Source: Nocardioides marmoriginsengisoli (GTDB lineage Bacteria; Actinomycetota; Actinomycetes; Propionibacteriales; Nocardioidaceae). From it: a stretch of 64,000 nucleotides of DNA. The position numbers and the translations under genes were made by a program. The stretch is taken from the NCBI RefSeq assembly GCF_003725695.1, contig NZ_RJSE01000005.1, positions 99,096 through 163,095 on the forward strand, in the 5' to 3' direction. The notes under the pieces were generated by a model, which was not told where the DNA came from, did not search any database, and saw only the letters and a list, made by a program, of their open reading frames with translations. Position 1 is the stretch's first letter, and each line of letters starts with the position of its first letter. Positions 2,114 through 7,028 of the stretch are shown piece after piece.

Positions 2114-2195
2114 GGTACGACGACCGACCGGGAGGAGGAACCCGACATGCCACGACGACCGCGCACAGGCACCCCGTGCGCTCTAGGATCCGAGC

Positions 2196-3830
2196 GTGAC
2201 CTCCTCGGAAGGGCAGACCGACGCCGAGCTCGTCGCCCGGGTGCTCCAGGCGGACCGGGAGGCGTTCGCGACCGTCTACGACCGCTACGGACCGCGGTTG
2301 TACGACTTCGCCTACTCGATGCTCCGGCACCGCGAGGATGCCGCGGACGCGGTGGCGGACTCGTTCGTGCTCTTCGCCGAGCGCCTGGTGCAGCTCCGCG
2401 AACCGGACCGGCTCCGGCCCTGGCTCTACGCGATCGTGCGCAGCGAGTGCCTGCGCCGGCTCAAGGCCCGGAAACGGGTCTCCTACGGCGACGACGAGCA
2501 GTTGGTCCAGATGCCTGACGCCGCCGCCACCCCCGAGCAGTCCGCCGAGACGGCCGCGCTCCAGAAGCTCGTCTGGGACGCCGCCGCCGGCCTCGCCGAC
2601 CGCGACCGCGCGATCCTGGACCTGCACCTGCGCCAGGGGCTCGAGGGCGCCGAGCTCGGCGAGGCGATGGGCGTCAGCGCGGCGAACGCGTACGTGATGC
2701 TGAACCGCCTGCGCGCCCAGGTCGACAAGTCGCTGGGGGCGCTGCTGATCGCCCGCCTCGGTCGTGACGACTGCGCGGAGCTCGACACCCTGCTGACCGA
2801 CTGGGACGGCTCCTACTCCCCGCTGATCCGCAAGCGGGTGGCCCGGCACGTCGAGGGTTGCGACATCTGCGGCGAGCGCCGCAAGAAGATGGTGAGCCCG
2901 TGGATGCTGCTCGCCGGCGTCCCGATCTTCGCCGCACCGGTCGCGCTCCGAGACCGGGTGCTCAACGACACCCAGCTGGTCGCGTATGCCGCACCGGGCG
3001 AGCAGGTCTCCGCCGGCGCGGCGCCGGGGCGGAGCATCAAGCCGCGGACCGCCGCGGTGGCCGCGACCGCCGCCGTGGTGCTGATCGGCGGGGGTGCGTT
3101 GCTGTGGCCGGACGGCGACCCGGCGTCACCGACGGCTGCCGACCCGACGCCGACGGCCACGACCAGCGCGCCGCCCACGTCGACCGACCCCACGCCGACC
3201 GAGACCCCGTCGAGCGCCTCCGCCTCCCCGTCGGCCGGCCCCACCGCGACCCAGGCGGCGGCCGCCCTGACCACCTCGACCAGGTCGATCAGCCTGGGGC
3301 GCACCGCCAGCCGCTCCACGCTCACCGTCGGCAACGACGGCGACCTGCCGCTCACCTTCACGGTCTCCGAGAACGCCCGCTGGCTGAGCGTCTCGCGGGA
3401 CTCCGGCGCTCTCGACGGCGACGAGTCCACCGCGATCACCGTCCGGGCGAACCGCGACGGGCTCCCGGAGGGCACCACCTCCGGGACCGTTCGGATCACC
3501 TCGGACGCCGGTTCGGTCGCGGTGCGGGTCTCGCTGGTCGAGGAGCACGACCCGGTCGTCGGCGCGATCGGTACGCCGGCGAACCCGTCCTGCACCCTTC
3601 CGGTCAGCGTCACCGTCCGTGACGAGAGCCGGATCTCCAGCGTCCGGCTGACCTGGAGCGGTCCGCTCTCCGGCACCAGCGCGATGAGCCTTAGTGCCGG
3701 GCGCTACCGGGCCACGATCGACCCGATCAGCACCGGCGGGACCTACACCTTGAAGGTCGTCGCCAGGGACGCTCGCGGCAACACCACGACCGTGACGCGC
3801 AAGCTCGACGTGAATCCCTGCCCCGGCTGA
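2196..3830 (+). CDS. ECF sigma factor fused to anti-sigma zinc-finger-like motif, TM helix and extracellular domain
   Basis: The 544-residue protein starts as an ECF sigma-70 factor. Region 2 (about residues 18-95, including DREAFATVYDRYGPRLYDF) binds core polymerase and the -10 element; region 4 (about 125-180, with the helix-turn-helix LEGAELGEAMGVSAANAYVM) binds the -35. The polypeptide then continues into an H218-x3-C222-x2-C225 motif like that of ZAS anti-sigma factors, one membrane helix (about 285-304), a Thr/Pro/Ser-rich linker, and an immunoglobulin-like BACON-type domain from about residue 355. A further beta domain ends in NPCPG. The cytoplasmic sigma end and the exported end imply a one-protein transmembrane signalling device, perhaps released by proteolysis. 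Related C-terminally extended, membrane-bound ECF groups are known in actinobacteria. The GTG start has TAGGAT 6 nt upstream. The class F sortase follows on the same strand. Confidence 0.85.
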   Translation: MTSSEGQTDAELVARVLQADREAFATVYDRYGPRLYDFAYSMLRHREDAADAVADSFVLFAERLVQLREPDRLRPWLYAIVRSECLRRLKARKRVSYGDDEQLVQMPDAAATPEQSAETAALQKLVWDAAAGLADRDRAILDLHLRQGLEGAELGEAMGVSAANAYVMLNRLRAQVDKSLGALLIARLGRDDCAELDTLLTDWDGSYSPLIRKRVARHVEGCDICGERRKKMVSPWMLLAGVPIFAAPVALRDRVLNDTQLVAYAAPGEQVSAGAAPGRSIKPRTAAVAATAAVVLIGGGALLWPDGDPASPTAADPTPTATTSAPPTSTDPTPTETPSSASASPSAGPTATQAAAALTTSTRSISLGRTASRSTLTVGNDGDLPLTFTVSENARWLSVSRDSGALDGDESTAITVRANRDGLPEGTTSGTVRITSDAGSVAVRVSLVEEHDPVVGAIGTPANPSCTLPVSVTVRDESRISSVRLTWSGPLSGTSAMSLSAGRYRATIDPISTGGTYTLKVVARDARGNTTTVTRKLDVNPCPG

Positions 3831-3839
3831 CCCGGAAGT

Positions 3840-3870
3840 TGTAAGAAACCGGCTCCTCGCGCCTCCTACC
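3840..3870 (+). promoter_or_regulatory. ECF-type promoter-like motif upstream of the sortase gene
   Basis: TGTAAGA (3840-3846) and GCCTCCTACC (3861-3870) repeat the motif found at 2083-2113 with identical spacing. It lies in the 71-bp gap between the sigma factor and sortase genes, 31 nt before the preferred GTG start. It would give a short leader that includes the GGAGG at 3891-3895. Confidence 0.5.
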
Positions 3871-3901
3871 CGTGTCCCGCACCCGACACCGGAGGTCCGT
3901 C

Positions 3902-4501
3902 GTGAAGCACCTGCTCCGCACCATCGTCCTGGCCGCGGCCTGCGGCATCGCCCTGACCGGGTGCGGCAGCGAGACCCCGGCAGCGCCCGTTCCCGCCGCG
4001 GTCGCGTCCCCCGCTGCACCCGCTCCGGCAGTCGCCCCGAGCGCCCGGCCCGCCCCGCGCCAGGTCGGCCGGCCCACCCGGGTGCTGATCGGCAAGATCA
4101 AGGTCGACGAGGCCCTGCACGGCGTCGGCCTGAAGCAGGACGGCGCGATGCAGACCCCCGACTTCGGCGACGCCGGCTGGTACGACCTCGGGCCGCGTCC
4201 GGGAGCACGCGGGCCGGCGGTGATCGTCGCGCACGTCCACGGACCCGCCGGCGACGACGTCTTCGCCGACCTCCACCGGCTGGTCCCGGGCGACCGGGTG
4301 ACGGTTCGTCGTACCGACGGTGCCTCGGTGTTCGTCGTCGACTCGGTCGAGCAGTCCAAGAAGGAAGCCCTGCCTGCCCAGCGGATCTGGAAGCGTTCCG
4401 ACCAGGCCCTGCTCCGGCTGATCACCTGCGGCGGGAAGCCCGACCCGGTGACCCGGATGTACCCGGAGAACACCGTCGTCTACGCGCACCTGGCGAGTTA
4501 G
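3902..4501 (+). CDS. Class F sortase, lipoprotein-type
   Basis: This is a cysteine transpeptidase acting outside the membrane. The catalytic elements are His111 in VIVAHVHG, Cys176 in LITCGG and Arg185 in PVTRMYPENT, the order expected of class F sortases. The N-terminus has a charged start, a hydrophobic stretch and the lipobox LTGC, then an Ala/Pro-rich spacer, so it is probably lipid-anchored rather than held by the usual single TM. The GTG at 3902 is preferred over an in-frame GTG at 3872 because GGAGG sits 6 nt upstream; this gives 199 residues. The gene ends in a 4-bp convergent overlap with the HIT gene. No LPXTG-type substrate was found in the window. The shared promoter motif links it to the upstream sigma factor. 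Confidence 0.85.
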   Translation: MKHLLRTIVLAAACGIALTGCGSETPAAPVPAAVASPAAPAPAVAPSARPAPRQVGRPTRVLIGKIKVDEALHGVGLKQDGAMQTPDFGDAGWYDLGPRPGARGPAVIVAHVHGPAGDDVFADLHRLVPGDRVTVRRTDGASVFVVDSVEQSKKEALPAQRIWKRSDQALLRLITCGGKPDPVTRMYPENTVVYAHLAS

Positions 4502-5043
4502 CTCCAGGCGTCGGCGAGCAGCTGGCGGGTCTCGGTGAGCAGCTGCGGCAGCGGCTTGGTGCGCCCGATCACCGGCATGAAGTTCGCGTCGCCGGACCAC
4601 CGCGGGACCACGTGCTGGTGCAGGTGCGCGGCGATCCCGGCTCCCGCGATCGGACCCTGGTTCATGCCGAGGTTGAAGCCCTGGGCACCGCTGACGGCGC
4701 GGATGGTCCGCATCGCGGTCTGGGTGAGCCCGGCCACCTCGACCGTCTCGGCCGCGGTCAGCTCGGTGTAGTCGGCGACGTGCCGGAACGGGCAGACCAG
4801 CAGGTGCCCGGAGTTGTACGGGTACAGGTTCAGGACGACGTACGCCGTCTCGCCGCGGTGCACGATCAGCCCGGCCTCGTCGTCGAGACCGGGGATCCGG
4901 CAGAACGGACACTCCCCCTCGGAGTCGTTCTCCGGCTTGTTCTCCCCGCGGATGTACGCCATCCGGTGCGGGGTCCAGAGCCGGTCGAGGTGGTCGTCCT
5001 CGCCGAGCCCGTCCTGGTGGAGGTGCTCCTCGGGTGCGGTCAC
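4498..5043 (-). CDS. HIT-family hydrolase/phosphorylase (AP4A phosphorylase-like)
   Basis: This 181-residue histidine-triad protein acts on nucleotide phosphates. The triad H-x-H-x-H is seen in [11 protein letters not shown], and CPFC near residue 46 supplies a likely zinc site. The M. tuberculosis orthologue at the same position, between thrS and pgsA1, is Rv2613c, a diadenosine tetraphosphate phosphorylase, so that activity is the best guess. The GTG start at 5043 forms a GTGA overlap with the thrS stop, so the two genes are translationally coupled. Confidence 0.88.
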
Positions 5044-7028
5044 ACCTGCACCCGGTCCGCGACCGCCTGCGCCACCCGGGCGATCGCCTCGTCGATCGGG
5101 ACGCCGTTGTCCTGGCGACCGTCGCGGTAGCGGAACGAGACCGCGCCCGCCTCGACGTCGTCCGCGCCGGCGATCAGCATGAACGGCACCTTCTGGAGCT
5201 GGGCGTTTCGGATCTTCTTCTGCATCCGGTCGTCCGAGTCGTCGACCTCGACGCGGAGGCCGAGCGCCTTCATCTTCTTGGCGACGTCGTACAGGTAGTC
5301 CGCGAAGGTGTCGGCGACCGGGATCGCCTGCACCTGCACCGGGGCGAGCCACGGAGGGAAGGCGCCGGCGTAGTGCTCGACGAGGACGCCCATGAACCGC
5401 TCGATGGAGCCGAACTTGGCGGAGTGGATCATCACCGGCTGCTGGCGGGTGCCGTCCGAGGCGACGTACTCGAGGTTGAAGCGCGGACCCGAGGGCATGT
5501 TGAAGTCGTACTGGATCGTCGACATCTGCCAGGTGCGGCCGATCGCGTCGCGCGCCTGCACCGAGACCTTCGGTCCGTAGTACGCCGCGCCGCCGGGGTC
5601 GGGGACCAGCTCGAGACCGGTCTCGACGCAGACGTCCTCGAGCACCTTGGTCGCGATCTCCCACTCCTCGTCGGAGCCGATGAACTTGTCGGGCTTGGAG
5701 TCGTCGCGCGTCGAGAGCTCCAGGTAGAAGTCGTCGAGCCCGAAGTCGCGCAGCAAGCTGAGCACGAAGTTCAGCAGGTGCCGGATCTCGTCGGGCGCCT
5801 GCTCCGGGGTGACGTAGGAGTGCGAGTCGTCCTGCGCGAAGCCGCGGACCCGGGTCAGGCCGTGGATGACGCCGGACTTCTCGTTGCGGTACACGTGCCC
5901 GAACTCGAAGAGCCGCAACGGCAGCTCACGGTAGGAGCGCTGCCGGGAGCGGAAGATCAGGTTGTGCATCGGGCAGTTCATCGCCTTGAGGCGGTAGTCC
6001 ATGCCGTCGAGGTCGAGCGCCGGGAACATCCCCTCGCCGTAGTACGGCAGGTGCCCGGAGGTGTAGAACAGCCCCTCCTTGGCGATGTGCGGCGTACCGA
6101 CGTACTCGAAGCCCTCCTCGATGTGACGGCGACGGACGTAGTCCTCCATCTCCCGCTTGATCACCCCGCCCTTGGGGTGGAAGACCGGGAGGCCGGAGCC
6201 GATCTCGTCGGGGAAGCTGTAGAGGTCCAGGTCGCGGCCGAGCTTGCGGTGGTCGCGGCGCTCGGCCTCCTCGATCCGGTGCAGGTGCTCGTCGAGGGCT
6301 TCCTTGGTCTCCCAGGCGGTGCCGTAGATGCGCTGGAGCTGCTTGTTCTTCTCGTCGCCGCGCCAGTACGCCGCCGCACTGCGCATCAGCTTGAACGCCG
6401 GGATCCGCTTCGTGGTGGGCAGGTGCGGCCCGCGGCAGAGGTCCTTCCAGGCGATCTCGCCGTTGCGGTCGAGGTTGTCGTAGATGGTGAGCTCGCCGGC
6501 CCCGACCTCGGCGCCGGCGCCCTCGGCGGCGTCCGCGGCCGACCCCTTCAAGCCGATCAGCTCGAGCTTGTACGGCTCGTCGGCCAGCTCGGCCCGGGCG
6601 TCGTCGTCGGTGGTGACCCGGCGGGAGAACTTCTGGTTCTCCTTGATGATCTTCCGCATCCGGGTCTCGATCTTGGCGAGGTCCTCGGGGACGAACGGGG
6701 TCTCGACGTCGAAGTCGTAGTAGAAGCCGTTCTCCACCGGCGGCCCGATCCCGAGCTTGGCGTCCGGGTACAGGTCCTGGACGGCCTGGGCCAGCACGTG
6801 CGCCGTGGAGTGCCGCAAGATGTCGCGTCCGTCGGCGCTGTCGATCAGCACGCCCTCGACCTCGTCGCCCGCGATCAGCTCGTAGGCGAGGTCCTTGAGC
6901 GCACCGCCGACCCGCGCGGCGATCACGTCCGGAACGTCCTTGAAGAGCTCCCAGGCACGGGTGCCGGCAGTCACCGTCTGCTCCGCCTGTCCGGCCGGGC
7001 TGACTACGGTGACGAGTACGTCGGACAC
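5040..7028 (-). CDS. thrS: Threonyl-tRNA synthetase
   Basis: This class II synthetase charges tRNA-Thr. The 662-residue protein has an N-terminal TGS domain and an editing (SAD) domain with [10 protein letters not shown]. The catalytic core has the zinc ligand region [10 protein letters not shown], the motif 2 segment [11 protein letters not shown] and a C-terminal anticodon-binding domain. Length and domain order are normal. The start is a GTG with GAGGAG upstream. A 15-bp inverted repeat (7058-7072, GCCGAT-GCT-ATCGGC) lies in the 5' leader. The HIT gene follows with a 4-bp overlap. No T-box was recognised. Confidence 0.96.

Follow-up and report, generated by a model that had tools for sequence, protein, structure and literature searches.

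The 64,000-nucleotide stretch of Nocardioides marmoriginsengisoli DNA analyzed here (the window) raises the question of whether a sigma factor, its anti-sigma module and a cell-surface sensor can reside in one polypeptide, and, if so, which genes such a protein would control. The original prediction had proposed an ECF sigma factor fused to a zinc anti-sigma (ZAS)-like motif, a membrane helix and a BACON-like exodomain, with a sortase as partner. The corresponding ORF spans 1635 nt from a GTG start and is intact, encoding one protein with the following parts.

2196-3830, + strand: fused transmembrane ECF sigma factor, 544 aa (ORF, codon-position GC, ortholog in 18 family genomes including that of the window)
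2277-2477, + strand: sigma-70 region 2, aa 28-94 (Pfam PF04542, Sigma70_r2, 2.3e-10; AlphaFold pLDDT >90)
2571-2720, + strand: sigma-70 region 4, aa 126-175 (PF08281, Sigma70_r4_2, 7e-4, below the gathering cut-off)
2772-2870, + strand: zinc anti-sigma-like module, C193-x24-H218-x3-C222-x2-C225 (residue conservation)
3048-3107, + strand: transmembrane helix, aa 285-304 (Kyte-Doolittle peak 2.03; AlphaFold helix 286-302)
3108-3257, + strand: Pro/Thr/Ser-rich disordered exolinker, approximately aa 305-354 (sequence; pLDDT mostly <50)
3273-3530, + strand: BACON/ASH-PapD-like beta-sandwich exodomain, aa 360-445 (PF19190, BACON_2, 5.3e-12)
3552-3827, + strand: second Ig-like exodomain, aa 453-544, with C466 and C542 (Big_13, weak, 7e-4; AlphaFold)

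The ORF, domain searches, AlphaFold modeling and residue conservation bear out this order of sigma, ZAS, membrane and BACON parts in a single chain. Two ways in which the prediction might have failed had been named. The first, a frameshift between residues 230 and 285, is ruled out by GC3, which is uniformly high at 0.91-0.98 from one end of the gene to the other; as to the second, that homologues might prove to be separate genes, each complete family ortholog that was fetched is a single ORF of ~535-570 aa, and none is split. Searching the segments individually by HMM recovered Sigma70_r2 and BACON_2, placed Sigma70_r4_2 below its cut-off, and did not detect Pfam zf-HC2 in the window protein; zf-HC2 was matched in 10 of 41 homologues from Nocardioides, Aeromicrobium, Actinophytocola, Pseudolysinimonas, mycobacteria, Nonomuraea, Acidimicrobiia and others. 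The NCBIfam model TIGR02937 for ECF sigma factors spans aa 22-178 (1.3e-21), and a structure search matched the fold of region 2 to SigW (Z 14.2). The predicted H-x3-C-x2-C motif (H218, C222, C225) is present, and a fourth ligand that had been missed, C193, completes it; all four residues are unchanged in 41/41 homologues across Actinomycetota, with the CHCC pattern found in 18/18 family orthologs. Judged from sequence, this CHCC stretch is a putative zinc anti-sigma module. The protein thus carries the features of transmembrane fused ECFs: regions 2 and 4 (region 4 alone being weak), a CHCC extension, and a membrane helix followed by an exodomain.

Outside the membrane, the anticipated Ig/BACON-like domain is modeled as two beta-sandwich domains with a pLDDT of 95.5. 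In the AlphaFold model, sigma domains, zinc module and both exodomains are all predicted with high confidence, and the linkers on either side of the membrane are disordered; the placement of these domains relative to one another is unreliable (pTM 0.40). The BACON exodomain matches an accessory domain of GH115 (Z 14.1, rmsd 1.5 over 97 residues) in fold searches that barely touched the second exodomain; as this beta-sandwich fold is common, recurring in pilus chaperones, cilia proteins and the GH115 accessory domain, no ligand can be assigned from it. C466 and C542 are both unchanged in 25/25 exodomains compared and probably form a disulfide.

How might such a protein be held in check and released? 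By analogy with ZAS proteins of the SigW/RsiW type and with ECF52, the membrane-tethered cytosolic CHCC module would keep the sigma-2 and sigma-4 domains inactive within their own chain, until some event on the two-domain exodomain, for which the original prediction had suggested a possible link to wall or glycan status, leads to intramembrane proteolysis or a conformational change that would free the sigma domain. Release by such a route has been proposed in the literature for ECF48, ECF52 and ECF53. For the ECF52 protein SCO4117 of Streptomyces coelicolor, proteolytic release has been proposed and autoregulation reported, and genetic evidence from this protein lends support to both sigma-domain release and autoregulation (PMC5826349). 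Activation could also proceed with no proteolysis, the sigma domain acting while bound to the membrane, if the zinc module were to answer a redox or metal change or if the exodomain were to drive a reversible conformational change. The examined part of the window contains no linked protease gene, and zinc anti-sigma modules of the CHCC/HHCC type can respond to redox state, as RsrA does, both of which favor this alternative. A purely cytosolic signal is however made less likely by the transmembrane helix and the conserved two-domain exodomain with its unchanged cysteine pair, and regulated proteolysis is what activates another fused ECF, IutY (PMC8999054); we therefore regard activation without proteolysis as unlikely.

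The DNA flanking this candidate switch has the following promoter-like features.

2082-2112, + strand: CTGTTAG-N17-CTCCTAC, putative ECF-type promoter for the fused ECF gene, 114 nt 5' of the start codon (aligned with 16 orthologous upstream regions; spacing 17-18)
2184-2189, + strand: putative leaderless promoter of housekeeping type, with the -10-like box TAGGAT placed at -12 relative to the GTG
3839-3869, + strand: TTGTAAG-N17-CTCCTAC, putative ECF-type promoter for the sortase gene (fits the ortholog motif exactly; the same motif precedes the orthologs' adjacent sortases)

Just two ECF-type motifs of this form occur in the window, one before the fused ECF gene, where the match to the consensus is the weaker (CTGTTAG), and one before the sortase. 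Nearly every ortholog with upstream sequence is preceded by YTGYAAG-N17/18-CTCCYAC; the ortholog consensus AAAAgTTGYAAG-N17/18-CTCCYAC lies mostly ~100-130 nt 5' of the ECF start (54 nt in L063), and the motif recurs between the ECF stop codon and the sortase. In 16 ortholog loci (218,688 bp, both strands), the strict motif was matched 38 times, 14 times before the ECF gene, 12 times before the sortase and 12 times before a surface-protein gene; it was found nowhere else in these loci and in none of 20 first-order Markov shuffles. When one mismatch was allowed, whole-genome counts were no higher than those of a reversed-pattern control, and the evidence for the motif is hence that of its exact matches, position and conservation. 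Because the fused ECF gene and the sortase have this promoter-like motif in common, the sortase is a predicted target of the fused ECF. The TAGGAT box, or a one-base variant of it, sits exactly at -12 of the ECF start in 17/17 ortholog loci with upstream sequence, which would fit the expectation for a leaderless housekeeping promoter, and such a promoter may supply a basal level of the protein. The released sigma domain would then recognize YTGYAAG-N17/18-CTCCYAC, and the genes transcribed would be its own, the class F sortase, and those of secreted proteins with a C-terminal membrane helix and basic tail. A leader ORF out of frame with the ECF, beginning at a Shine-Dalgarno-led ATG at -49 (window 2147-2195), was considered and set aside, as it recurs in several orthologs without being general and possibly arose by chance.

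Under a looser pattern searched in 12 whole genomes, the motif also precedes unlinked secreted-protein genes, some resembling the surface-protein gene of the ortholog loci, including two in the window's own genome (G000; C12:81846 and C2:284466). At the second of these (G000:C2:284466, L094), an exact motif lies 84 nt before the start of a 645-aa secreted protein (MFRKTFTGSLVAASLTAGAL...) in which no sorting signal is evident; relatives of this protein in G007 and G086 are motif-preceded as well. In G115 (L097), the motif stands 5' of the gene for a secreted 236-aa protein whose glycine/aspartate repeats are RTX-like.

The gene that follows the fused ECF gene is the predicted sortase.

3902-4501, + strand: class F sortase (NF033748, 4.5e-44; Pfam Sortase, 1.9e-18)

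Its longest ORF begins at 3872, and the likely true start is the GTG at 3902 that follows GGAGG; the signal peptide holds a lipobox-like LTGC. With the NCBIfam class F model it scores 149.8 bits, a little short of the cut-off of 166 (E 4.5e-44), and class E is far behind at 2e-4. The catalytic residues H111 and C176 are unchanged in 13/13 orthologs, and the usual downstream Arg is missing from the L057 sortase. The sortase partner is real: of the 18 orthologs, 13 (with that of the window) have it directly 3' of the fused ECF gene and one more has it at a distance of 1.4 kb, and it shares the promoter-like motif. It does not stand beside every homologue, there being none near the fused ECF in the remaining four orthologs (G007, G001, G140 and G064), and adjacency as a universal rule was rejected on their account. 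An early impression that the link was accidental, formed on G007 and G001 only, was overturned by the wider ortholog survey. Nor is the link one of simple synteny, since it is kept where the thrS/HIT/pgsA neighborhood differs. In the G007 locus (L023), two ClpP-like protease genes lie directly 3' of the ECF gene (3983-5262). Across 150 genomes of the family, the sortase clade (profile, E <1e-80) occurs in exactly 14, all ECF-positive, and the next-best class F sortases outside it score 5e-46 or weaker.

The third motif-preceded gene of the ortholog loci, that of the surface protein, has a secreted product of 157-227 aa in which inspection and hydropathy show a signal peptide, a C-terminal membrane helix and a basic tail. 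An LPXTG-type pentapeptide is not present in these proteins; in its place the tails have P[TNSK]R[VI][DE][AT]G in common, with the membrane helix and basic residues coming next, and Pfam Gram_pos_anchor scores them at 12.8 bits against a cut-off of 20. Strong tails (48-position profile, E <1e-10) were found in 16 family genomes, all ECF-positive, and in 0/132 ECF-negative ones (Fisher 1e-19 for co-occurrence with the ECF, without phylogenetic correction; 11 of the 18 ECF-positive genomes belong to one genus, and the associations are not phylogenetically independent). The tails vary with the sortase. In each of the 14 family genomes with the sortase clade, a tail reads P[TNSK]R[VI]DAG; the Actinophytocola loci L137 and L149, which have a sortase, carry PNRIETG and PNRIDTG, respectively. 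Where the sortase is absent genome-wide (G140, G064), or from the 5 kb examined (Pseudolysinimonas L138, Actinophytocola L143 and L146), the motif-driven tail protein is still encoded and has no sorting signal. This pattern, to which G007 is the one exception (see below), suggests that the ancestral regulon may have comprised the ECF itself and a surface protein, the sortase and the sorting signal coming and going as a pair. By this co-occurrence and co-variation, the sortase would be predicted to join the tail proteins to the envelope at the non-LPXTG signal.

Two other explanations of the regulon bear on these data. The motif could be the promoter of another regulator, either a second ECF or a transcription factor, with the fused ECF as just one of its targets; each genome encodes many ECFs, and the pairing of this motif with the fused ECF is itself our inference. 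We consider this distinctly unlikely, because the motif precedes the ECF gene in nearly every ortholog with upstream sequence while being absent elsewhere in the loci, the sortase clade and the strong tails are confined to ECF-positive genomes, and autoregulation is usual for ECFs and has been reported for SCO4117 (PMC5826349). Alternatively, the sortase and the tail proteins could be functionally unrelated, the sortase having other substrates and PTRxDAG being a lineage feature of the tails. One genome speaks for this: G007 keeps a PTRVHAG tail with no class F sortase at E 1e-25. The promoter motif and gene order that the two genes have in common, together with the joint absence of sorting motif and sortase in several lineages, including some outside the family, make a functional separation very improbable in our view.

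A full-length ortholog of the fused ECF was found in 18/150 genomes of the family, the window's own among them; absences are provisional, since not all first-look candidates are scored in the genome search. Named counterparts come from Aeromicrobium, Nocardioides, Pimelobacter, Actinophytocola and Pseudolysinimonas, and more distant fused ECF-ZAS-TM proteins with varied exodomains occur in 26/296 genomes sampled across the phylum. Since GC3 is even and isolates as well as MAGs of several genera have full-length orthologs in a single ORF, a sequencing artefact or an accidental fusion of separate genes can be dismissed. A viral or phage origin was likewise rejected, as one viral-contig scan returned no relative and a phage collection gave one weak sigma match. 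In Streptomyces cellostaticus, two fused ECF-type proteins have, by eye only, a CAP/SCP-like (L232) and a BACON-like (L233) exodomain, which suggests that exodomains are freely swapped in proteins of this type. The window's own genome encodes another ECF (L007, G000:C4:68478-69125) that has a short C-terminal zinc-motif-like stretch and no membrane helix, and overlaps a membrane-protein gene.

Taking these lines of evidence together, we favor, with a probability of about 0.7, the reading in which the fused ECF is a self-contained transmembrane sigma switch that runs a surface-protein anchoring module. We hold it reasonably probable, with somewhat less assurance, that a surface-sensing one-chain sigma factor runs a class F sortase dedicated to a signal not recorded before, P-[TNSK]-R-[VI]-[DE]-[AT]-G, and induces itself, this sortase and the anchored protein. 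The outcome would be an inducible, positively autoregulated remodeling of the cell surface and, if true, a complete sense-and-remodel surface module within one regulon.

The fused architecture, whose novelty the original prediction had implied, is not new, since ECF48, ECF52 and ECF53 are known fused groups with ZAS, membrane and extracellular extensions (PMC5826349, PMC8999054). The regulon appears to be the new part, and the sortase-signal pair is possibly new; a literature search limited to open-licence papers found none that links a fused ECF to a sortase. Among the closest known systems is SCO4117, which, like the window protein, has an ECF, a zinc finger, a transmembrane helix, a Pro-rich exposed linker and an extracellular domain in one protein (PMC5826349). 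SCO4117 possesses a carbohydrate-binding module (smart00776), whereas the window protein has BACON and Ig-like domains; no module of the SCO4117 kind was found by Pfam in the window protein or among the families matched by the 41 homologues, and none was recognized in the fused ECFs from a Streptomyces genome search. SCO4117 governs development and secondary metabolism, whereas the regulon predicted here is one of sortase and surface proteins. The motif of SCO4117, the one fused ECF of actinobacteria to have been studied, is not settled; a promoter sequence is now predicted for a fused transmembrane ECF. The actinobacterial groups ECF48 and ECF53 share the C-terminal ZAS fusion and one or two transmembrane helices, but the available part of their description mentions no sortase, sorting signal or promoter motif (PMC8999054). 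IutY (ECF243) of Pseudomonas putida likewise unites a sigma factor and a membrane anti-sigma factor in one chain and is activated by proteolysis (PMC8999054), but serves iron-starvation surface signaling with another type of anti-sigma factor.

Class F sortases are common in Actinomycetota and their physiological role is stated to be unknown; a 2026 study in which all four of one species were deleted saw no phenotype, and neighbors without a pentapeptide motif have been suspected as possible substrates (PMC13251363). The window sortase shares with them the sortase domain and the catalytic His and Cys, and differs in that a substrate of its own, bearing a non-LPXTG signal, is predicted for it. 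A specific family of substrates, the signal by which they would be sorted and the circuit that would control them are thereby proposed, giving class F sortases a first candidate job. The tail proteins in turn resemble actinomycete wall proteins of the SspA/CwpA type, which have a signal peptide, a C-terminal transmembrane helix, a basic tail and an often disordered body (PMC13251363), but where those proteins present LPXTG or LAXTG, the proteins described here present P[TNSK]R[VI][DE][AT]G.
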